From assembly GCA_018970215.1 (NCBI GenBank), contig JAGWWX010000006.1, positions 1 to 42,863 of the forward strand: a stretch of 42,863 bases of DNA, written 5' to 3'. The first letter of the stretch is position 1; each line of letters begins with the position of its first letter. The position numbers were made by a program, and so were the translations under genes. The stretch comes from Acidobacteriota bacterium. Its GTDB lineage: Bacteria > Actinomycetota > Acidimicrobiia > Acidimicrobiales > RAAP-2. Of this stretch, positions 5,016-30,751 are shown piece by piece. Under the pieces are notes generated by a model. That model worked only from the letters and a program-made list of their open reading frames with translations, was not told where the DNA came from and made no database searches.

Positions 5016-6872
5016 CTATTCACACACGACGATGAGGCCATCTCCCGGAACTGCAGTGTAGATAGCTGAACCTCGAGGGTTCATCTGAATGTGCCCGGTT
5101 GATTTACGGATTCCGACTAGCGACTCCCCCCGTTCGGCCGCCATCTCAATGAGCTCGAATATTGAGACAGAGTCGTTGTTCTCGAGGTACAGGTCAATGG
5201 GGTACACATTCAAGCTCACGCCCGTTGCGTCGAATAAGTCATTGAAAATTGATGCCAGTCGAGAGTCTTCCGTGAGCTGAGCCATCATTTGTGCAGCCAA
5301 GCGGTCGCTTACGACGAGATCGTCGGGCTCCGTTAACAGCGCTAAGTCGGCCCGACGCGAATCCAAGATTTCTGCAACTAGGCGGACGTTTGACCCCTTG
5401 AGGACGGTATTGATGAGCAAAAGAATCAGCATCGTCTTCGCGTCAGCACTGGCTGCATCGATGCCATGGCGGTAGGCCAGAACGAGGACTTGATCAAATT
5501 TGCGTTGAGCGAGAGCTGCCTCAAGTCCGTGAGTAGATCCCTTTGTATCGATAAATTCGACGGTCATCGATCCGTATGAGCCCGCTGGTCGCTGCTCAAC
5601 GTACGCCGCATCAGCGAGAACGGTCACTGTCGAGCCCACTCGGACAAATGGTGCGAGTTCGTTCAAGACAGCTTCGCCCATGGTTGACCAACCAATAACC
5701 AGGAGATTTTCTGGTGAATCGTTCCAGGGCGTTGAAATACGCGGTGCTTTCTTCGTCACAGCGCGAGCGTGATGAGGTGCTTCAGTAACCACATCATTGG
5801 CCACCACAATCAAAGCGTCACCTTCCACAATCTCCGTAGAGGGCAAAGGATTTAGTAAGGGCGAGTCGCCACGCTCTATTCCGATGACTCGCGCACTCTC
5901 AAATGCGGTGAGCGCATCTCGATAGGTTCGCCCCATGAGACTACGGGCGGGAGTGACGTGAATTTCATTCCCTTCGAAATCCAGAAAATCAGCGAGAGCC
6001 GTGGCGAGTCCGTGTTGACGGCACGCTTGGGCAGTCACGCGCGCAATGATCGTCCACGCGGTCACGGTCCGGACTTTCTCGCCCGTGGCGTGGCGGAGCG
6101 CTGTGGCGTGATGGGGATCTGACACTTCTACAACAACGGGGATCTTGAGCGATGGGTCAAGTGATTTGACGGCGAGAACAGTGGCGATGGATGCCGAATC
6201 TCCTTGATCAGGTTCAAGCACAATCACACTTGCGGCGCGGAGGATATTTGCTCGCGAGAGAGCAACGGGATTCGTCGGGTCGCCAGTGCGAGAGACGACT
6301 TTCAGCCGTCCAAGATCCGGGCAACGTGCCTCAATCTCGTTCAACATTCCCGACGCTGGTCTTTCTGCGACGATGACCACAAGACGTCGGCGGCTGCCAC
6401 TTGCGAGGGAAAGCTGCTGAAGAACAGGAAATATCCGATTAGACCAGCCGAGAATGAGAACATGCCCCGACTCAATAACAGGGCTTGTTCCATTTTTTAG
6501 GCTCTCCAACCGACGCGTCATTGTGGTTGTCACAAACGCAATAATCGTTGCTGAGATGGTGATGGTCGGTATCCATTGAAGTGCCCACACCGCCCGCACG
6601 GCCCAATTGCCGTCTGGTACGGCATTGTTAAAGAGAATCGCATCAAGTCGATCCCATAGCCCTGAAGTGAATACGCTCCCCGCCGAGCTTTCGCCGAATG
6701 CGCCGACCATCCACCCCAGCAACGTGATGACTAGGGCAGCCACAAATCCAAGAATCCCGAGAGTCGTAACAAATATGGCGGGGCCCTGCGCGACGCCGTT
6801 GTCAAAGTGATAGCGAATACGAGTAAACCAGGCGTGGGCACTATCAGTACAACGGGTGGCGAATTTTCGCAT
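5016..6872 (-). CDS. CASTOR/POLLUX-like ion channel protein with TrkA-type NAD-binding domains
   Basis: Predicted membrane cation-channel protein with large cytoplasmic regulatory domains. Numbered from the ATG at 6872 (618 aa), it has a hydrophobic helix (IFVTTLGILGFVAALVITLLG), a second helix near residues 95-120 (WIPTITISATIIAFVTTTM), then two Rossmann/RCK-like regions: one around GHVLILGWSNRIFPVLQQL and one around ENLLVIGWSTMGEAVLNEL. This matches the bacterial relatives of plant CASTOR/POLLUX channels. The reading frame is open 32 codons further, to a GTG at 6968. I prefer 6872 because a TACCGT hexamer lies exactly 6 nt upstream of it and the extra residues are Arg/Pro-rich and look untranslated. 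The ion conducted is unknown. There are no obvious cotranscribed partners. Confidence 0.75.
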   Translation of the reverse strand: MRKFATRCTDSAHAWFTRIRYHFDNGVAQGPAIFVTTLGILGFVAALVITLLGWMVGAFGESSAGSVFTSGLWDRLDAILFNNAVPDGNWAVRAVWALQWIPTITISATIIAFVTTTMTRRLESLKNGTSPVIESGHVLILGWSNRIFPVLQQLSLASGSRRRLVVIVAERPASGMLNEIEARCPDLGRLKVVSRTGDPTNPVALSRANILRAASVIVLEPDQGDSASIATVLAVKSLDPSLKIPVVVEVSDPHHATALRHATGEKVRTVTAWTIIARVTAQACRQHGLATALADFLDFEGNEIHVTPARSLMGRTYRDALTAFESARVIGIERGDSPLLNPLPSTEIVEGDALIVVANDVVTEAPHHARAVTKKAPRISTPWNDSPENLLVIGWSTMGEAVLNELAPFVRVGSTVTVLADAAYVEQRPAGSYGSMTVEFIDTKGSTHGLEAALAQRKFDQVLVLAYRHGIDAASADAKTMLILLLINTVLKGSNVRLVAEILDSRRADLALLTEPDDLVVSDRLAAQMMAQLTEDSRLASIFNDLFDATGVSLNVYPIDLYLENNDSVSIFELIEMAAERGESLVGIRKSTGHIQMNPRGSAIYTAVPGDGLIVVCE

Positions 6873-6878
6873 TAGGAC

Positions 6879-6884
6879 ACGGTA
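6879..6884 (-). promoter_or_regulatory. Predicted -10 element of the ion-channel gene (leaderless)
   Basis: TACCGT on the minus strand, 6 nt before the ATG at 6872. It decides the start codon in favour of 6872 over the GTG at 6968. Confidence 0.45.
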
Positions 6885-7015
6885 GCAATGAACGGCATTG
6901 AATGACTGCCTTGGCCTTGGCCTTCGTAAATTTTTTTCACCACCAGTGGGTAGAGCGCGTTCGCACACGTAGGAGTCTCAGCGAATTCGTTAGAGCGGAT
7001 TTTCCAATCAGCGAA

Positions 7016-8237: not shown

Positions 8238-10097
8238 TTAGAAGGGTTGGAGGATTGGCGTCAATTCGTTAGGAATTGGCCACCGCACCGCATCATTGTG
8301 ATAAATGATGATGTGGTCATTACGCCACACTTCGCTTAATGCTGCAACGCCTGCGAACTTCGTCAGGCACTTGTGCGAGAGCGGTTTGGTATACGTACGT
8401 CCCTTTTCGTTGTCGAAGAGATATCCGTCGGCGGGGGCGTTACGACTCAATCTCATGTCAACAATGATGTAGTCATACATTCGCAAGTGTAAGAAGAAAC
8501 CATCGCGAGATTTCCAGCGAAAGTCATGAAACATGTCTTTGCAGGCATATGTCCACGGAATGATGGTGGCAACGTTGGTAGCGGACGACGTCGCACCTAC
8601 GATGCGCGAAGTTAGGCGGTCGGTGCAGTAAATGTCATTTTGATCGGTGTTGTTTGCCATCCACTGCGCGGCCTCCACTGTGTAGGAGTCCAGTTGATTA
8701 GGAGATCCAACGAGATAACCAGCGGGATAACGGGAGTAATACGGAGATCCCGAGATGAAGCCCGAGAAGCAAAAGATCGTTCCTAGGGTGGCCATCAAGA
8801 TTCGACCCTTAGTACCCCAGAGTCGCGGGCGCGGTGCATACTCCCCGATTAAGAGAGCCATCCACAAAATAACGAAGCCGCCGCCTCGATTACTTGCTTC
8901 CTGTACGCCGGGGACCACTCGACCAACAACGGTCATCGGATAGATCAGTCCCGCGACCAAGACCCAGGTCATTGGCTCTTTCGCCTTGAAGCGCTTATAC
9001 GCCTCCCACAAGCTAAGAAGGGTTAAACCAGCCAGAAGGAGCTGTCCACCGAGCGAGATAACAACTTCAAACAGCGGGGTTTGCAGGGCCGCTGACTGGA
9101 AAGGCAATCGTAGTTCGCTCTTATTTCCATTGAGAAAGTCAAGAAACGGTGCCACACTTTGATTGGCGATGTACTTGATTGCTCCGCGAGCTACCAAATA
9201 GGTGTAAGTCGACACCATCGATAAAGCAATAAGAAATGTTAGGAGCAGTCGTTTCCACGGTTCGTCGTTTTGAAACGCCTCCCATAACAAGGTCATCATG
9301 ATGGACAAGAGCATGAAGAATGACGACAAATGGTGGGTGCCCGTGGCCAGAGCACACATAAAGATAAAGGCTGCCAACCACCAGCGCCGAGCGAGAACTG
9401 AGTGCCCACGGAAGTACATCAAGGCCAAACTGTATGCCGTAACGGCCAGACTGATTCCCAAACTTTCGTAGGCGTACTGGCTATCAAAGAACACCATTGT
9501 GGGTGCCGCAAAGAACAGCATCGTAACAAGCGCCGACGTCAGGCGACTCTTGGAGAACTCACGGGCGACATAGAAAACAGAGATAATTGCCAGGACTTTC
9601 GCAACGCCGATGGTCACTATCGCAGCAGTTGTCGGCTCAAGTCCGGTCATTCTCACCACGCCAGTCACAACCCACGCCAGCGAGGGATAGTGCCCCACAA
9701 TTGGCAAAATCGAGTTGTACGAGAATGGATTGCCCGTTGCCAGAGTGACAATCAGTTGGCGATAGTGGGCCCACTCATCGTCCAGTCCAATGGAGTAGCT
9801 AAAGCGAATCGCCCGAATGAGGTAGACGGCAGTTATGCCGATGCCCAAAATCAATAGTGTTTCGCGATCGCGTTGCCATGGCCGTGTCAGAACGAAAAAG
9901 AATGGCAGCAGAATGGTTGCGAATCCGCTCCAAAACAACAACGCGACAAGACCACTTCGGCTGTGCAGACCGAAGGAGCAGTTAATGAGAAAGAGTCCAA
10001 GAGCGCAAGTGGATACAACAACCGCGGCGGATAACCAAATATTTCCAGGCGTCGTGTCCTGGAAAATGGTGTGTTCCTCAGCGGCGCTCAGCGTCAC
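8238..10097 (-). CDS. Polytopic membrane glycosyltransferase-like protein (GT-C fold)
   Basis: 619 aa with about a dozen hydrophobic helices, then a soluble C-terminal part (from about residue 455) that is probably extracytoplasmic. After the first helices comes FSYSIGLDDEWAHYRQL near residue 105, an acidic loop motif placed as in GT-C transferases such as the GT39/PMT-like and ArnT-like families, which use polyprenyl-phosphate sugars outside the membrane. A second typical feature is GTHHLSSFFML near residue 250. It could add sugars to lipid-linked precursors or to proteins, or be a Wzy-type polymerase; sequence alone does not decide. The GTG start at 10097 follows an AAGGGGG ribosome-site-like stretch. 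It is followed closely by the flippase-like gene and is separated by a strong hairpin from the fibronectin/pentapeptide gene upstream. Confidence 0.65.
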   Translation of the reverse strand: MTLSAAEEHTIFQDTTPGNIWLSAAVVVSTCALGLFLINCSFGLHSRSGLVALLFWSGFATILLPFFFVLTRPWQRDRETLLILGIGITAVYLIRAIRFSYSIGLDDEWAHYRQLIVTLATGNPFSYNSILPIVGHYPSLAWVVTGVVRMTGLEPTTAAIVTIGVAKVLAIISVFYVAREFSKSRLTSALVTMLFFAAPTMVFFDSQYAYESLGISLAVTAYSLALMYFRGHSVLARRWWLAAFIFMCALATGTHHLSSFFMLLSIMMTLLWEAFQNDEPWKRLLLTFLIALSMVSTYTYLVARGAIKYIANQSVAPFLDFLNGNKSELRLPFQSAALQTPLFEVVISLGGQLLLAGLTLLSLWEAYKRFKAKEPMTWVLVAGLIYPMTVVGRVVPGVQEASNRGGGFVILWMALLIGEYAPRPRLWGTKGRILMATLGTIFCFSGFISGSPYYSRYPAGYLVGSPNQLDSYTVEAAQWMANNTDQNDIYCTDRLTSRIVGATSSATNVATIIPWTYACKDMFHDFRWKSRDGFFLHLRMYDYIIVDMRLSRNAPADGYLFDNEKGRTYTKPLSHKCLTKFAGVAALSEVWRNDHIIIYHNDAVRWPIPNELTPILQPF

Positions 10098-10210: not shown

Positions 10211-11797
10211 TTACGGCTTTGGTCCGATAGCGCCTGAGGCAACTTGATATCCCCACGGCATCGCGGACGGAGTTCCTGTTACCGAACCAGAAGCACCCGA
10301 CAAATTCGCACTCGAGAGGTTTGCGCCATCAAGGTTGACGTTCGTAAATGTAACGTTCTTGAAACTTGCTCCCGTCAGGTTCGACCCTGAGAAGTTCACA
10401 TTCGAGATGGCATTCGTGTGCAGCTGAATTCCACTGAGGTCGCGGTTTGAAAGGTCAAGGTTTGAAATTCCCTCTCGATTAGCCAAATAAGCGCCCGGCC
10501 CGACCAAGAATCCACCAGTAACCGTCCATTTGTCCGGCAAAGTAGCAGGCGTTCCAATAACGCCAGCCGAACTCACTGCCGTACGGAGCGAGTTATCAAC
10601 AAAGGTTGTGCCTGTAAACGTCGCATTGGTCACATTGGAGTTCAGGAAGAATGCAACTGCCTTCGAACCATTGAGGTTCGCTCCGATCAAGTTGGTCCAG
10701 GTGAAAGCGATGCTGCTGAGATCCAAGTTTGATAGGTCGGCACCCGACATGTCAGCTCCACCCAGATACGCCTTTGGTACAACAATGTGGCCTTTCACAA
10801 CTCGACCGGGAAGCGAGGCGGGCGTACCCGTAACTTGCAGCGAGCTGACGTTGTTCCAGATGTTGTTCGAAAATGCCGCACCGTCGACTGTGCTGTTGTA
10901 CCAGTAGGTAGCACCGAATCGAGTATTCGTCGCGGTGGCATTGTCAAAGTCCACGTTCCAAATTGTCGTTCCCGAGAAGCTCGAGTTGCTGACGTTGACA
11001 CCCGTCATATTCACATTCTTGAGATAGGAAGAGTACAGATTCATGCTCGTCAGATTGGTTCCGGCAACAGATCCGTTCTTGATCATCAGATAGTTACCGA
11101 CCACACCAATGTCACATCCCGTCGTACAACCTGTCTTGTAGAGATACTGCCAGCCGGTGAAGGAGGGTCCTGATACACCTTCGATTGATTGGTAGATCGT
11201 TAGTGTTTCGGCAAAGTTGGCGCCACTCATGTCGCGAACATTGTGGAGAGTAACTCCCGTCTGCTGACACGAGTAGGTAGTCGTGGTGCACAGGACTGTC
11301 GAACCATTCGCGACCACGGTATAGATAGCTCCTGGGTACGGAGTGCGTGAATAGAAGCGAATAGTGAGAGTCTCTGTTGCCTCGTCGTAGTATCCATACT
11401 TAATTGCCGGTTGAGCCGGCGCGCCATAGGGCATCGCTGAGCCCGTCGGTGAGTTCACTGAAGTTCCGACGGCATTCGTTGCTTTGACCGTGAGGTAGTA
11501 GCGACGAAAGTCCACAAGACCACTACTAAATGTGCACGTAAACGTCGAGGCACTCACCGGGCACTGCTGCTGGTTGTTATAAATGTCCGTTATTTTCGCT
11601 GTGTAGCCCGTAATGGGTGAGCCACCAGTTGACGAAGGTGCAGACCACGTCACAGTTACGGAGTGGAGACCACCTGTCGCACGAATGTTGCGAGGTGCCG
11701 TAGGAGCCGTCACCGCAGCTTCTACCGGGATGGCGACGGCAAGAGTTGCGACGGCGATGGCTGCTGTGCCTGCAAATTTGAACAGACGAGACTTCAT
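10211..11797 (-). CDS. Secreted protein with fibronectin type III domain and pentapeptide repeats
   Basis: 528 aa. Signal peptide of about 28 residues (MKSRLFKFAGTAAIAVATLAV... ending at PVEA-A). Residues 33-122 form one fibronectin III domain (APTAPRNIRATGGLHSVTVTW, SPITGYTAKI, YYLTVKATNAVG). A cysteine-containing linker follows, then pentapeptide repeats from about residue 235 (GTNLTSMNLYSSYLKNVNMTGVNV; later LGGADMSGADLSNLDLS and NFSGSNLTGASFKNV), which fold into a right-handed beta-helix. Three copies of a spacer of the form GTPAxLP-xxxVxxGxxVxP separate the repeat blocks. It is probably a surface-associated structural or adhesive protein; no catalytic domain is seen. GGAG lies about 13 nt before the ATG and a TATGAT -10 box about 33 nt upstream. 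It is a paralog of the 1253-aa protein at 21245-25006. Confidence 0.85.
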   Translation of the reverse strand: MKSRLFKFAGTAAIAVATLAVAIPVEAAVTAPTAPRNIRATGGLHSVTVTWSAPSSTGGSPITGYTAKITDIYNNQQQCPVSASTFTCTFSSGLVDFRRYYLTVKATNAVGTSVNSPTGSAMPYGAPAQPAIKYGYYDEATETLTIRFYSRTPYPGAIYTVVANGSTVLCTTTTYSCQQTGVTLHNVRDMSGANFAETLTIYQSIEGVSGPSFTGWQYLYKTGCTTGCDIGVVGNYLMIKNGSVAGTNLTSMNLYSSYLKNVNMTGVNVSNSSFSGTTIWNVDFDNATATNTRFGATYWYNSTVDGAAFSNNIWNNVSSLQVTGTPASLPGRVVKGHIVVPKAYLGGADMSGADLSNLDLSSIAFTWTNLIGANLNGSKAVAFFLNSNVTNATFTGTTFVDNSLRTAVSSAGVIGTPATLPDKWTVTGGFLVGPGAYLANREGISNLDLSNRDLSGIQLHTNAISNVNFSGSNLTGASFKNVTFTNVNLDGANLSSANLSGASGSVTGTPSAMPWGYQVASGAIGPKP

Positions 11798-21244: not shown

Positions 21245-24200
21245 TTATTGCAGCACAAGGCGCTTATTCACGGCATCAAAGATGACGCGGCGGGGCAACG
21301 AGGCGGGCGATGAACCAGTAACAGAGATGTAGTACGTCGTACCCGAGTAGGTCGCGGAATCGCTGATACCCCACATATTGGTCATCGTGGCACCCGTGAA
21401 GTTTGCTCCTGTCAAAAGCCCAGGGTTGAAGCTCAGTTGCCCCCCGATCGCAATCTGCTGAATGTTCACATTGGTGAGATTTGAGTTAGTGAAGTTCACA
21501 TTGGTGAGGTTGCTATTGATGAGCACCGCTCCCGTGAGGTTCAAGTTAGAGAGGTCAAGACCGCTCAAATTCTTCCTCACAAGAACAACACCAGGTCCAA
21601 AAATCATGCCGGAGACTTGCCGATAGCCCGTTGAAAGACTTGACATTGTCCCCGAGTTACTTACCGAACTAACACCATTCAGCGTCGTGTTAGCAAAATT
21701 GGCACCAGTGAGGTTGCATTGACCGAAGTAACTGTTGTTCAATGAGTCGTTACTGAAATTGACATTCGTCAAGTTAGCTCCGACAAACGTCATGTTGCTC
21801 AGGTCGCCCATGTTTGAAAGATCAGCGCCAGTCAAATTCTTGTTGAAGACCGCCATTCCCTTCGCCACCCAAACGCCGTTATAGATCACGCCACCGTACG
21901 AATACACGTTGGTGGTCGTGAAATTCGCGGTCATTTGCGAAGCGGCGGCACCGGTCATATTGGCATTCAACCGAGCGTTCACAAACGAAGTGCTGATCAG
22001 TGTTGCGTTGGAGAAATTGACTCCGCTGCCATTGTCTTTCGAGCCGCTGAAGTCAGTGTTTTGAATTGTTGCGTTCGAGAAGTCCACGTTGGCCAACGTG
22101 GCGCCACCGAAGTACGAATTGACGACGAATGAGTTTGAAAAGTCCAGACCGGACAAATTGAGCCCTACGAGATTGACACGATTCATCTTGTAGTAGTTGC
22201 CCACAATGGTCGAACACGTGGGATTGCTGGGCGTGCAGGCCAAGCGCACAATTTTGACAGGGTAGTCAAATACTTGTGTGGTATAGCCCGATCCCGATGT
22301 CACGGTAAGGCGCAAGTTCGCATTCAAGATGACACCGGTACCCGACGACGCAGCGACGGTCTCTTGGCATACAAATGAACCGGAGCGACCTGAGCACAGC
22401 GTGTTTCCCGAAGTACGGTCAGCCAGGCTGAAGGTGAAGTTATTGCCATCGGTCTGAGAAGTTGCGCTCACGAGCAGCGTCTGAGTACTTGGCGTGTACG
22501 TGACGAGAATCTTCGGCTGCGGGAGTGGCCCATCGGCACCCATCCGAAGTGTGCCACCAGGACCGGTGGCATCAGCGTTGGAGGCCGTCGCTGTGACGGT
22601 GTATGAGCCGTACGCCGGAATGTTCGCAAAAACAACATTGCGACCACAAGCGGTCTGCGTGGTGTCCACTGTTGATGAGGTTGGGTAACTCACAGTTCCC
22701 GTGAGGCGAACCGATACCGTACCTACTGATGATCCCCAGTACGTCGGGCAAGCGACGTAAACCGTCAGCGTTGCTTCCTGCACTCCGTAGTAGTTCGGCG
22801 CATACGTGAAGCTCGCCGGTCCAACAACAGGCGCGTTGGGGGTTACTGACAACGTGCCTTGGGCAGTTCCAGCGGCTCCGGTAGTGAGACCGTTGTCCGC
22901 AGTCACGCTCACGGTGTATTGCGTCGCGTAGGCCAGACCATTTGTGCCATCGCCATTAATTACACACGTCGTTGACGGAGCGGTCGAGGTACAGGTGTAC
23001 CCACCGGGCGTGATCGAGGCTGTGTACGAAACAATTGCTGCTCCGCCGTCCGAGGTTGGCGGATTCCAGTTAACGGTGAACTGACCTTTTGCTGACCCGA
23101 ACTGCCCCGCTGTCAAGGTCACGTTACGTGGCGCACCAGGAGCATCGCCCGTCGTGACGGTCGAACTAGCCACTGAGGTCGGTGATACACCGGCGACATT
23201 TGTCGCCGTCACCGTAAATGTGTAATCCGTATTAGCAGAGAGACCGTTGACGCGGCACGAGACATCAGGTGCAGTTGCGGTGCAAGTCTTATTGCCGGGC
23301 GAAGACTTCACCGTGTACGAAGTGACTGCGGATCCACCATCAGATTCTGGTGCCGTCCACGAGACAATAGCGCTACGAGCACCACGAGTTGCCTGAGGGT
23401 TTCGAGGGGCTGTCGGGACATTGGCCGTCGACACCGAACCCGACGGTGAACTAAAGCTGCCTGAGCCGACCGAATTCACTGCCTTCACGGTGAACGTGTA
23501 CGAAGTCTTGGTCGCAAGTCCCGTGACCGTGCAGGTGCGAGCCGGTGCAGTGATAGTGCAGGTCTTATTTCCGGGTGAGGACTTCACTTGGTACGACGTG
23601 ATGCCGATACCACCATCATCATCTGGTGCGTCCCACGACACGTCAATTTGCGTATCCCCCGAAGGAGTCCCCGTCACTGACTTCGGTGCACCGGGAAGCG
23701 TTGGAGTGCGCGAGGAGCTTGACGGAGAAGATGCCGCACTGGTGCCGATCGCGTTCGTCGCCTTAACGGTGAAGGTGTAATTGGCGTTGAGCGACAGTCC
23801 GGAAATGACACATGTTGTCGTTGGCGCCGACACTGAACATGACTTGTTTCCAGGAGAAGAGTACGCCGTGTACGAGGTCACTGGCGAACCCCCGTCTTTC
23901 GAAGGTGCTGACCAACTGATGGTCATCGAGGTGGAGGAGGCAACGGTGGCGGAAGGGGCACCGGGAGCTGACGGAGCGGTCGGGGCGTAATCCCAGAGCC
24001 AACGCTTCGTTCCCGAGAACTGGTAAACGTTTCCCGAGCCAGGGATGAGCAGCATGGTCGCCATCCAGTCCTGCGGGCCGTTGTTGTCCTCTTTGCCAAC
24101 TTTGGTCCACTTCAGAGTGCTGGCCGTTGTACCCGAAAGTTGGTAGGTCTTACCAATACCAGCCTCGCCGGTGAGGAGAAGACCGTTACCGGCACCGGCC

Positions 24201-25006
24201 GGCCCCATGGCGTGAGTACCAATCGCTTCGGGGCGAGAAGAAATCGAAGCCTTAGTGAAGTTGGCACCGTTTTGCACCCACGTGTACGTGGACTTTGCGT
24301 TGCAGCCACTGTCTGTGCAGCCGCCATGGATAACGTTGGCCTGCAGATCCGGGTCGTACGCCATCGCAAAGTGGTGGAGAAGCGGAGGTGTCGTGCCTGT
24401 CGTTGTTACTTGGGTCCAGTCCGAACCGTCAAACGACCAAAGATCACGCAGTGTGGTCGTTGTGTTGCGACCTCCAAATACATACACGAGCGAACGATTT
24501 GCGTCATAGGCAATACCGTGATCGAATCGTGCGCCGGGGGCGCGGGATGTTGATACTTGTGTCCAGTTAGTTCCACTCCAAGTCCATGTGTCGTTATAGC
24601 CCGTCGTGGTACCCCCACTCACTGAGTAGCCACCAAAAATTACAATGCGACCGATGGCGGCATCCCAAACCGCCCAGGCACCAGCGCGAGCTGATGGGGA
24701 GTTAGCGGTCGTGAGCTTGGTCCAGGTAGCACCTTCGTCTGTGGACTTCCACGTTTCGTTCTTATACACGCCACCGCTCGTCACGCCACCAAACAAAATG
24801 ATCGCGCTGTTCGCTTCGTCGTAGGCAATCGATGGGGCGATGAGGTTAGGAAGTGTTGCGGGAGTGGTGTTGCTCCATTGGCGGGCTGCGGTTTCACCGT
24901 GGCCTTCGCCTTCACCGCCATCATCGGCAAACGCCACAGATGATGTAGCCATTGACAGAACAGCGAGCAGCACCACCACAAGACGTTGAGTTCGACGCAT
25001 GAACAT
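21245..25006 (-). CDS. Large secreted protein: kelch-like propeller, fibronectin III repeats, pentapeptide repeats
   Basis: 1253 aa. Signal peptide of about 27 residues (VVVLLAVLSMATSSVAFA). Residues 40-345 hold kelch-type repeats (AYDEANSAIILFGG, WDAAIGRIVIFGGY, AYDANRSLVYVFGGRN), a beta-propeller like that of galactose oxidase. Four fibronectin III domains follow at about 346-435, 436-530, 531-622 and 623-718, each with a conserved short Cys pair (SSPGNKSCSVSAPTTTCVI). A beta-rich region (720-930) comes next, then pentapeptide repeats to about residue 1230 (GLNLSGLDFSNSF, ANVDFSNATIQNTDFSG, NLTNVNFTNSNLTNVNI). No sortase signal or membrane anchor is seen. It is probably a surface or extracellular adhesin or matrix protein, perhaps binding the polysaccharide made next door (inference). 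The ATG at 25006 follows AAGGAA; the ATG at 25000 is an alternative. Confidence 0.85.
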   Translation of the reverse strand: MFMRRTQRLVVVLLAVLSMATSSVAFADDGGEGEGHGETAARQWSNTTPATLPNLIAPSIAYDEANSAIILFGGVTSGGVYKNETWKSTDEGATWTKLTTANSPSARAGAWAVWDAAIGRIVIFGGYSVSGGTTTGYNDTWTWSGTNWTQVSTSRAPGARFDHGIAYDANRSLVYVFGGRNTTTTLRDLWSFDGSDWTQVTTTGTTPPLLHHFAMAYDPDLQANVIHGGCTDSGCNAKSTYTWVQNGANFTKASISSRPEAIGTHAMGPAGAGNGLLLTGEAGIGKTYQLSGTTASTLKWTKVGKEDNNGPQDWMATMLLIPGSGNVYQFSGTKRWLWDYAPTAPSAPGAPSATVASSTSMTISWSAPSKDGGSPVTSYTAYSSPGNKSCSVSAPTTTCVISGLSLNANYTFTVKATNAIGTSAASSPSSSSRTPTLPGAPKSVTGTPSGDTQIDVSWDAPDDDGGIGITSYQVKSSPGNKTCTITAPARTCTVTGLATKTSYTFTVKAVNSVGSGSFSSPSGSVSTANVPTAPRNPQATRGARSAIVSWTAPESDGGSAVTSYTVKSSPGNKTCTATAPDVSCRVNGLSANTDYTFTVTATNVAGVSPTSVASSTVTTGDAPGAPRNVTLTAGQFGSAKGQFTVNWNPPTSDGGAAIVSYTASITPGGYTCTSTAPSTTCVINGDGTNGLAYATQYTVSVTADNGLTTGAAGTAQGTLSVTPNAPVVGPASFTYAPNYYGVQEATLTVYVACPTYWGSSVGTVSVRLTGTVSYPTSSTVDTTQTACGRNVVFANIPAYGSYTVTATASNADATGPGGTLRMGADGPLPQPKILVTYTPSTQTLLVSATSQTDGNNFTFSLADRTSGNTLCSGRSGSFVCQETVAASSGTGVILNANLRLTVTSGSGYTTQVFDYPVKIVRLACTPSNPTCSTIVGNYYKMNRVNLVGLNLSGLDFSNSFVVNSYFGGATLANVDFSNATIQNTDFSGSKDNGSGVNFSNATLISTSFVNARLNANMTGAAASQMTANFTTTNVYSYGGVIYNGVWVAKGMAVFNKNLTGADLSNMGDLSNMTFVGANLTNVNFSNDSLNNSYFGQCNLTGANFANTTLNGVSSVSNSGTMSSLSTGYRQVSGMIFGPGVVLVRKNLSGLDLSNLNLTGAVLINSNLTNVNFTNSNLTNVNIQQIAIGGQLSFNPGLLTGANFTGATMTNMWGISDSATYSGTTYYISVTGSSPASLPRRVIFDAVNKRLVLQ

Positions 25007-28125: not shown

Positions 28126-28635
28126 TTACGCCTGCGGACGGAAGTATCCGTTAAACGGTGCTCGGCCGCGCTCAAGCAGCTCGTCGGTCACTTCTAAGTG
28201 CACACCACGCCGCAAGCTATCGAGAGTGGCCTGGCGATTGTTGCGATACACCTCGTCGTCATCGTCCGCCATCGGATCAATCCATACGGCGGTAATCAGT
28301 AACAACGACGACGCGAGTTGTCGGTCGATGACTCCTTCGTGGAGGGCGTCCGTGACGCCACTGGCAACACCGAGTTGACCCGCCCCCCAGGTCGTGGCCG
28401 CGTGGCGGTCTGAGGTCACTGTTGCCTTATTAACAAACAGCGTCATGGGAACGAGTGGGACGTTAGGGGCCGCGACCACGACGAAACCTACGTGGCCTTC
28501 GCGCGGGGTTGCGAGCGCCGTGACCCAGGCCGATTCGACGGGGCCTCCCTTGAGACCCAACACGGTATTGAGGTGTGCCGCATTGACGCCGGTTCCGGCG
28601 TACGCCTCGCCGAACTGAGTTACGAACTCGGCCAT
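28126..28635 (-). CDS. Formaldehyde-activating enzyme (Fae) homolog
   Basis: 169 aa. True Fae catalyses condensation of formaldehyde with tetrahydromethanopterin. The Fae pattern is clear: GEAYAGTGVNAAHLNTVLG with the catalytic-type His21, KGGPVESAWVTALATPREGH, VVAAPNVPLVPMTLFVNKATV, GAGQLGVASGVTDALHEGVI and a C-terminal RAPFNGYF resembling the HPF end of the Methylorubrum enzyme. No other tetrahydromethanopterin-pathway gene is in the window, so the acceptor may differ or be absent. The ATG lies inside the 3' end of the 2-oxoglutarate oxygenase gene (16-nt overlap), so the two are coupled. A role in trapping formaldehyde made by that oxygenase is inference. Confidence 0.82.
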   Translation of the reverse strand: MAEFVTQFGEAYAGTGVNAAHLNTVLGLKGGPVESAWVTALATPREGHVGFVVVAAPNVPLVPMTLFVNKATVTSDRHAATTWGAGQLGVASGVTDALHEGVIDRQLASSLLLITAVWIDPMADDDDEVYRNNRQATLDSLRRGVHLEVTDELLERGRAPFNGYFRPQA

Positions 28636-29450
28636 ATCACGGGTGGTTCAGCGAAAGCAGTGCGGCGGCCGTAGCGGTCAAAACGTAGGTGTTCGTTAGA
28701 GACGGTGTCGGGCTTGGTGTCGTAGGCGAAGAGACCCACATGGCGAAGGGTCGAACCCGCAATCGGGCTCACGCGGTGCAACGTGTAGCGACCTTCGAAA
28801 ATCAACAGCGTGCCCGGCGTCATTGCGAGGGTAACAACGCGCTCGTGCCGACCATCAAATATCGCTTGAACGTCGTCGTAGTGCTCATCGTGCGGCTCCC
28901 GCAGTTTCGGTACCATCTCGAAGTCACCGCCCGCATCGGCATCCTGGATAGCGAGCGAGACGACAAAGTCGGTTTGGTCGTAGTGCCACTGCAGTTGGTC
29001 GCCTTCCCCCATCACCGCGAGATTGAGTGCGCCACAGGGATCGGCGTAGTGAAATAGTGGTCCACGTTGCAGGACCTGCTCCACAAACGCCGTGAGTTCC
29101 GGCAGCTCGTAAATCTGACGAAGTGGTGACGTATAGGGAATGACGTCATATCCCACCGCACGAACCCCGTAGGGCATGCGATGAGCGCGGGGGTGTCCGC
29201 TAGGCCACTCCGACGACGGCTGTTCCAGCCATGCCGTTCCGACACCACCGGAGGGATGCGCTCGTTCGACAAGTGACTCGGCGTCTCGGACGAGTGCGAC
29301 CATTCCGTCGGGGAGGATGAAGTTCGGAAGTTCAGCAGCACCCACCTCGGCGACTTGTTCTCGCGCCCGGGCAATGACTGACGTAGCCGTCGGGCCAGTG
29401 AGATCGTGTATCGGGTAACGATCCAAGTCGATGTAGTCGAGTGCGCTCAC
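28620..29450 (-). CDS. 2-oxoglutarate/Fe(II)-dependent oxygenase (ArpA/HalD-like)
   Basis: 276 aa from the GTG at 29450. The Fe(II) facial triad is visible as His156-x-Asp158 (LQWHYDQTDFVVSLAIQDA) and His225 (TLHRVSP), with Arg236 (LRHVGLFAYDT) placed to bind 2-oxoglutarate. The surrounding sequence (GGDFEMVP, TPGTLLIFEGRYTLHRV) matches the family containing ArpA and the BesD/HalD halogenases. Because Asp158 is retained where halogenases carry Gly, hydroxylation or oxidative demethylation is predicted, not halogenation. The substrate is unknown. The frame is open 12 codons more, to a GTG at 29486; 29450 is preferred because TACCCT lies 7 nt upstream. It overlaps the Fae homolog and diverges from an MFS gene. 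Confidence 0.82.
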   Translation of the reverse strand: MSALDYIDLDRYPIHDLTGPTATSVIARAREQVAEVGAAELPNFILPDGMVALVRDAESLVERAHPSGGVGTAWLEQPSSEWPSGHPRAHRMPYGVRAVGYDVIPYTSPLRQIYELPELTAFVEQVLQRGPLFHYADPCGALNLAVMGEGDQLQWHYDQTDFVVSLAIQDADAGGDFEMVPKLREPHDEHYDDVQAIFDGRHERVVTLAMTPGTLLIFEGRYTLHRVSPIAGSTLRHVGLFAYDTKPDTVSNEHLRFDRYGRRTAFAEPPVIWPSS

Positions 29451-29463: not shown

Positions 29464-29488
29464 GTTCTCTCGAAAACGGTTGCCACAA

Positions 29489-29500: not shown

Positions 29501-30751
29501 ATGGCCCGGCTTCTTGTCGATATCACCCCCTTGCGGGCCAGCCGGAGTTTTCGACTCCTCTTCATTGGGCACTTGGCGTCGATGCTCGGGAACCAACTCA
29601 CTGTGGTGGCGATCGCCTACCAGGTGTACGACATCACGTCCTCGAGCCTGTGGGTGGGTGTGGTGTCGTTGTGCCAACTCCCCTTTCTCGTGTGGGGTTC
29701 GTTATGGGGTGGGGCAGTCGGTGACAGGGCCGACAAACGCCGGATTCTCTCCCTCGGCGGAATTGGTCTGGCATTCATTAGTAGTGGGCTCGCGTGGAAT
29801 GCATCCCGTGGTCACCCATCACTATGGGTGGTCATCGTCCTTTCTGCAATCGCCGCATTCGGCGGAGGATTTGTCAATCCCGCACGCAATGCATCCATTC
29901 CACGCCTCGTGGAGCCGCATCAACTCGTTGCGGCATATTCCCTGAACCAAGTCGTGATCCAAACTGCGACAGTCGTCGGGCCAGCCCTTTCCGGCGTTCT
30001 ACTCGCGACTCGCGGTGTTGCTGCTTGTTACTGGCTCGACGTCATCTCCTTTGTGATCTTTGTGGTGGCAACTCGTGCCATGGATCCGCTGCCTCCATCT
30101 GGTGCAAGCCCCATGTCAAGTTGGCGGTCCACAGCGGAGGGTCTGAGGTATCTCCGCAGCCACCGTGTTGCCCAGGCGGTGTATTTCGCCGACTTGAACG
30201 CGATGATCTTCGGCATGCCCCGCGCGCTCTTTCCCGCCGTCGGACTCAGTGTCTTTCACGGTGGCCCACAGCTCGTCGGCCTCTTATTCGCCGCTCCGGG
30301 TGTCGGGGCACTGCTGGGCGCGCTCACGACCGGGTGGGTTGAGCACATCGATCGCCGAGGTCGAGCTGTCATCTACGCCGTGGCGGTGTGGGGCGGCTCC
30401 ATTGCCGTCTTTGGGTTCGCGCCGTGGCAAGAACTAGCACTTCTCGCACTGGCATGTGCCGGCTACGCCGATGTGATCTCCGCAGTTCTTCGCAATGCAA
30501 TTCTTCAAAGTCGAATCGACGACTCCTATCGTGGTCGCCTGTCGGCGATTCAAATTGCTGTTGTCACGGGCGGTCCACGATTAGGCGACCTGGAGTCAGG
30601 GGTTGTTGCTCGAGGCGTTGGAACCCAAACATCGATTGTGAGTGGTGGGCTCGCGTGCGTGGTGGGCTCATTTGTCCTGGCCCACCTCTACCGAGAGTTT
30701 TGGGAAGAGCGCGCTAGCGACGCGGAATCGTCCGACGCTTCCCGTTCGTGA
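29501..30751 (+). CDS. MFS transporter, EntS-like
   Basis: 416 aa with about 12 hydrophobic helices. The start RSFRLLFIGHLASMLGNQLTVVAIAYQVYDIT and the loop WGGAVGDRADKRRIL (motif A between helices 2 and 3) are typical of the MFS_3 group that includes the enterobactin exporter EntS. The substrate is unknown. The ATG has a TAGGGT hexamer 6 nt upstream. It is divergent from the oxygenase-Fae pair, so it may be regulated with it or move a related compound (inference). Its 3' end overlaps the 3' end of rlmN on the other strand by 38 nt. Confidence 0.83.
   Translation: MARLLVDITPLRASRSFRLLFIGHLASMLGNQLTVVAIAYQVYDITSSSLWVGVVSLCQLPFLVWGSLWGGAVGDRADKRRILSLGGIGLAFISSGLAWNASRGHPSLWVVIVLSAIAAFGGGFVNPARNASIPRLVEPHQLVAAYSLNQVVIQTATVVGPALSGVLLATRGVAACYWLDVISFVIFVVATRAMDPLPPSGASPMSSWRSTAEGLRYLRSHRVAQAVYFADLNAMIFGMPRALFPAVGLSVFHGGPQLVGLLFAAPGVGALLGALTTGWVEHIDRRGRAVIYAVAVWGGSIAVFGFAPWQELALLALACAGYADVISAVLRNAILQSRIDDSYRGRLSAIQIAVVTGGPRLGDLESGVVARGVGTQTSIVSGGLACVVGSFVLAHLYREFWEERASDAESSDASRS

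Follow-up and report, generated by a model that had tools for sequence, protein, structure and literature searches.

Why is an Fe(II)/2-oxoglutarate oxygenase encoded in overlap with a homolog of the formaldehyde-activating enzyme (Fae), and what could the two proteins do together? The question is raised by a locus of assembly GCA_018970215.1 (contig JAGWWX010000006.1, positions 1-42,863 of the forward strand; we refer to this whole stretch of 42,863 nt as the window). An earlier note on this DNA had proposed a demethylation unit, in which the oxygenase liberates formaldehyde and the Fae homolog captures it. The two minus-strand frames and the 16-nt overlap that it described were confirmed. 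The oxygenase, of the BesD/HalD type, occupies positions 28620..29450 (minus strand, 276 aa, GTG start); its mechanical ORF opens at a GTG at 29486, and the GTG at 29450 was favoured by conservation. The Fae (PF08714) homolog follows at 28126..28635 on the same strand (169 aa, ATG start). The oxygenase stop, at 28620, is located inside the Fae homolog frame, and the sequence common to the oxygenase 3′ end and the Fae 5′ end (28620..28635, minus strand) is ATGGCCGAGTTCGTAA (16 nt). Translation of the two genes is likely coupled via this overlap.

The pair stands alone in the window, with a peroxiredoxin-like gene convergent downstream and a divergent MFS exporter gene upstream (EntS-like, MFS_3; 29501..30751, plus strand). 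Conservation of the exporter gene next to the pair is limited to f1-type loci, and to most of these; it was rejected as a core part of the system on this ground, and an accessory role is possible.

To what extent is the pairing conserved? A search of species genomes with the oxygenase returned 8 loci, with Fae adjacent in 7 of them, all actinobacterial, and absent at the eighth, in a Nevskiaceae. When 298 Acidimicrobiales genomes were scanned, a Fae-homolog match was found in 23 and an oxygenase relative in 79. An adjacency limited to this one genome, which the earlier note had held would speak against a functional unit, is not what was observed: 17/22 full Fae homologs (one partial match, in G081, is left out of this count) lie directly downstream of a same-strand oxygenase. 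The 17 genomes carrying the pair (G000, G329, G061, G058, G039, G146, G147, G230, G110, G127, G182, G160, G108, G251, G203, G306 and G287) span seven families (f1, f4, f7, f20, f23, f29 and f47). Gene calls outside the window were made with a simple home-made composition scorer, and several of these counts rest on draft genomes, in which contig ends hide neighbours. The gaps between the two genes are mostly -16, -14, -4 or -1 nt, the -16 gap recurring in L011, L012, L017 and L091. The surroundings of the pair vary between families and are largely common within f1, and the f1 genomes are not independent given these common surroundings. A shared neighbourhood alone was rejected as the explanation of the pairing, since the flanks differ between families. 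Thus, the oxygenase and Fae genes form a two-gene module conserved in Acidimicrobiales, and their adjacency is not due to chance. A literature search, partial in its coverage, returned no report of such a pairing.

Two further sets of neighbours were noted at individual loci. Genes for 2-oxoacid dehydrogenase E1-alpha, E1-beta and E2 lie directly upstream of the pair at L017:6545-9998 and L091:3622-7048; such upstream genes (G006/G146) were rejected as part of the system, being lineage-specific. The same applies to an alkyl-sulfatase-like gene of the metallo-beta-lactamase fold located downstream, which overlaps the Fae 3′ end in L009-L013 and L087.

The oxygenase belongs to the Pfam family PF23169 (HalD; E=4e-13, 49.6 bits for a gathering cut-off of 26). 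Its predicted structure is of good quality (pLDDT 90), and the solved structures that this model resembles most are HalB, BesD, HalA, HalD and a BesD-like lysine hydroxylase (PDB 6nie, 7u6i/j/h, 7jsd and 9oet among the BesD/HalB/HalD group and this hydroxylase); the alignment profile retrieves much the same set. The model shares the Fe/2OG scaffold of this group, at an identity of only ~15%. The HxD motif (WHYD), the distal His and the 2OG-binding Arg are invariant in 39/39 related oxygenases, so that the full HxD...H plus Arg set of Fe(II)/2OG hydroxylases is present on a predicted Fe/2OG fold. The Asp of the HxD aligns with a Gly in HalB and BesD, whereas it is kept, as in the window oxygenase, by the hydroxylase members of the group. 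In the evolution of halogenation, the protein-carboxylate iron ligand was lost (PMC10187165). Conservation of the Asp in 39/39 sequences, as opposed to Gly in HalB and BesD, makes this a hydroxylase-type iron site. As judged from sequence, the enzyme is of the hydroxylase type and not a halogenase, as the earlier note had deduced from the same residues in predicting hydroxylation or demethylation; a radical halogenase of the BesD/HalD type was ruled out by the presence of Asp, rather than Gly or Ala, in 39/39.

The second sphere of the iron site distinguishes the Fae-linked oxygenases, which carry DxL[QG]WH[FY]DQTDFVVS, from their sisters, typically HxFPWHFDGNEFTVS. The Fae label clusters strongly in the oxygenase tree, with 3 changes against a shuffled mean of 12.6. 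In BesD, the residues three before and three after the first Fe-His are a His and an Asp, which we take to bind lysine; in the window oxygenase they are replaced by Leu and Gln. A lysine-type substrate as in BesD is thus not supported.

The sister HalD-like oxygenases share family and order with the window enzyme and are located in catabolic-looking operons, but differ in this motif and in their downstream genes. In Acidimicrobiales, genes for a 3-hydroxyisobutyrate-type (HIBADH-type) dehydrogenase and for a class II aldolase come after many of them, with an enolase-superfamily (MR_MLE) gene next in the three cases read further (L127:7111-10789, L128:6468-10168 and L129:4958-8340). This four-gene operon has the look of an oxidative catabolic pathway not yet described. 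Fae is missing next to two oxygenases of the Fae-linked type, in G301 and G286. In G301, the next gene after the Fae-clade oxygenase encodes a lyase of the aspartase/fumarase superfamily and overlaps it by 4 nt. In G286, a 67-residue frame at the contig edge, also with a 4-nt overlap, gave no Pfam match and resembles the lyase N-terminus by eye. Fae is replaced by a lyase-type gene in G301 and probably in G286.

The Fae homolog is a member of PF08714 (E=7e-42, 143.5 bits, gathering cut-off 27), and scores 115.9 bits, just under the cut-off of 118.05, against NCBIfam TIGR03126, the equivalog for the tetrahydromethanopterin (H4MPT)-dependent Fae. The closest fold match of its AlphaFold model (monomer, moderate quality, pLDDT 76) is the Methylobacterium Fae 1y5y/1y60. 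The active-site His pointed out in the earlier note (GVNAAHLN) is His21 of the AAHLN motif, invariant in 11 aligned pair members. With the H4MPT-dependent enzyme (EC 4.2.1.147), to which it is ~35% identical, the homolog shares its predicted fold and 19 positions, including His21, Lys70 and Gln87. In contrast, at 14 positions where H4MPT Fae is fixed the window type has a different residue, mostly also a fixed one (for example D23N, Q78H, F83W, F118W and W121P).

In a tree, seven H4MPT-type Fae formed one clade (support 100/99), apart from the window type. Several of these references came from loci adjoining genes for mch or methylene-H4MPT dehydrogenase, and the window homolog did not group with the Fae of such clusters. 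Instead, it grouped with Fae of Burkholderiales, Ensifer and Streptomyces, those of Burkholderiales and Streptomyces being catabolic-operon Fae; the tree has some long branches, and its resolution within the window type is poor. By these comparisons, the homolog and H4MPT Fae belong to separate subfamilies. The same genus also has a second, distant Fae type (L018, L019; 27-29% identity), its long branches falling near, and outside, the H4MPT clade.

Could the cell supply tetrahydromethanopterin at all? MCH (PF02289) and beta-RFAP synthase (TIGR00144) were found in none of 25 Fae-bearing Acidimicrobiales genomes, and the archaeal controls were detected. The set includes the window genome, which is 98% complete, and consists of 18 genomes with the pair, 4 with Fae and no oxygenase, two with the distant Fae type (G021, G034) and one, G082, with Fae near a contig end. 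Given these absences, the homolog is very probably unable to work with tetrahydromethanopterin. That the window holds no other gene for this cofactor had been seen before; the same now holds for the whole genome and for every Fae-bearing relative that was screened. The accompanying suggestion of another acceptor gains from this result, since any acceptor must differ from H4MPT. Bona fide mycothiol formaldehyde dehydrogenase was over its cut-off in 4/25 genomes only (in this set G301 and G286 replace G021 and G034), and was absent from the window genome.

Outside the pair, the Fae subfamily keeps a different company, with partners unrelated to C1-pterin metabolism. In G277 and G128, where the oxygenase is missing, a Zn-alcohol dehydrogenase (Zn-ADH) gene is the immediate neighbour of Fae. 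In G111, Fae is preceded by a betaine/proline/choline-type ABC ATPase and followed by MR_MLE, aldehyde dehydrogenase (ALDH) and HIBADH-type genes. The order Fae then MR_MLE recurs among other Actinomycetota (f78, f80, f85, f104 and f115); in most of these families it comes with at least one gene of the Zn-ADH, ALDH, HIBADH-type, Fe-ADH or succinate-semialdehyde dehydrogenase (SSADH) kind, with an IclR regulator or with transporters. In f78, this cluster lies after genes for an amino-acid permease and an arginase-family protein and before one for a class III aminotransferase. The order in S. clavuligerus is glycine-betaine ABC, Fae, oxidoreductase, SSADH, and in Caballeronia, Burkholderia and Ensifer Fae is found with AKR and SSADH. 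Elsewhere, then, the subfamily sits in catabolic operons handling alcohols, semialdehydes and hydroxyacids. Since HIBADH-type and MR_MLE genes lie beside both, the oxygenase and Fae families meet the same kinds of partners independently.

The reading we favour, to which we give slightly less than an even chance, is that of a catabolic hydroxylase and an H4MPT-independent Fae homolog that cleaves, rearranges or captures what the hydroxylase produces. The oxygenase would hydroxylate a small substrate of the amine, amino-acid or hydroxyacid type, and the product would be an aldehyde, a hemiaminal or a beta-hydroxy compound. On this product the Fae homolog, via its conserved His, may perform an addition/elimination (hydro-lyase or lyase-like) or an aldehyde-handling step without tetrahydromethanopterin. 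The same position in related operons is held by an aspartase-type lyase, or by a HIBADH-type dehydrogenase together with a class II aldolase. Against this reading stand the variable operon partners and the fact that the Acidimicrobiales pair is mostly without the HIBADH and MR_MLE genes of other clusters; no PF14833 match was found in the window genome. With partners that vary, the Fae homolog could deal with aldehydes in general instead of being an enzyme for one product. More specifically, and with roughly one chance in three, the Fae fold may have been recruited as an H4MPT-independent lyase or aldehyde processor of the oxygenase product, evolutionarily interchangeable with an aspartase-type lyase. 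If this is true, the Fae family gains a new enzyme activity and the pair represents a new two-step oxidative cleavage pathway.

The demethylation unit, amended such that N- or O-demethylation is followed by condensation of formaldehyde with tetrahydrofolate, a thiol or an amine rather than with H4MPT, is rather unlikely. The His, Lys and Gln positions of Fae are kept, a class III-like Zn-ADH adjoins other members of the subfamily, and some members are near glycine-betaine-type ABC transporters; moreover, with mycothiol formaldehyde dehydrogenase so scarce and missing from the window genome, another formaldehyde route would be useful. However, the positions fixed in H4MPT Fae are changed here, the Zn-ADHs score far under formaldehyde-dehydrogenase cut-offs, the enolase-superfamily, SSADH, HIBADH and aldolase partners suggest larger substrates, and near the pair no gene for a methylated substrate was found. 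The neighbour contexts thus suggest general catabolism more than a dedicated demethylation unit, and formaldehyde as the oxygenase product is possible but not specifically indicated. Of the original proposal, the conserved module and the hydroxylase type stand, as does the idea that any acceptor is not H4MPT. No finding indicates a methylated substrate, nor formaldehyde in particular; the Fae homolog is of the distinct subfamily, whose other partners act on alcohols, semialdehydes and hydroxyacids.

It is improbable that the Fae homolog acts as a sensor or shield co-expressed with the oxygenase, binding aldehyde in a non-catalytic or regulatory way. Such sensing or regulatory roles have been proposed for Fae homologs, and growth on C1 compounds showed no phenotype after single deletion of Fae2 or Fae3 (PMC3728764, PMC5023235), which also counts in favour of this possibility. 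Like the window homolog, the methylotroph Fae2, Fae3 and other Fae homologs are Fae-family proteins without a proven Fae role (PMC5023235, PMC3728764), but their cells have the H4MPT pathway, in contrast to the window-type genomes. The retention of the catalytic His and neighbouring residues over a large divergence, and the placing of the gene in metabolic operons, argue against a mere binder.

We consider equally improbable a lactonase-, mutarotase- or isomerase-like Fae homolog, whose step would lie between those of an oxidising enzyme and an acid dehydratase. In oxidative sugar pathways this slot is filled by a lactonase, and the order ADH-Fae-MR_MLE-ADH/ALDH in several Actinomycetota matches it. 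Nevertheless, an MR_MLE gene is absent beside the Acidimicrobiales pair, and the AKR, Fae and SSADH clusters show no obvious lactone step. Finally, a canonical, H4MPT-dependent Fae whose neighbouring oxygenase is unrelated to it, for which the PF08714 fold, the best structural match to 1y5y/1y60 and the near-miss with TIGR03126 would speak, was rejected as hardly tenable because the marker genes are missing in 25/25 genomes with positive archaeal controls and the window type lies outside the H4MPT clade.

The annotation ‘formaldehyde-activating enzyme’ is commonly taken as a sign of C1/H4MPT metabolism. For this subfamily, found in catabolic operons and in genomes without H4MPT markers, such a reading is unsafe. 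The coupled oxygenase provides a defined partner, hence a direct assay for the role of a Fae-fold protein without tetrahydromethanopterin, a role apart from H4MPT being also a question for methylotroph Fae2 and Fae3.

Some other genes of the window deserve mention. A 619-aa protein (8238-10097, minus strand) gave no Pfam match at E 0.001, and the protein encoded at 5016-6968 (minus strand) combines a Castor/Pollux-type ion-channel domain with TrkA domains. Two proteins with fibronectin III and pentapeptide repeats (10211-11797 and 21245-25006, minus strand), the larger also with Kelch repeats, are probably cell-surface proteins; between their genes lies a series of genes of the glycosyltransferase and sugar-nucleotide types.
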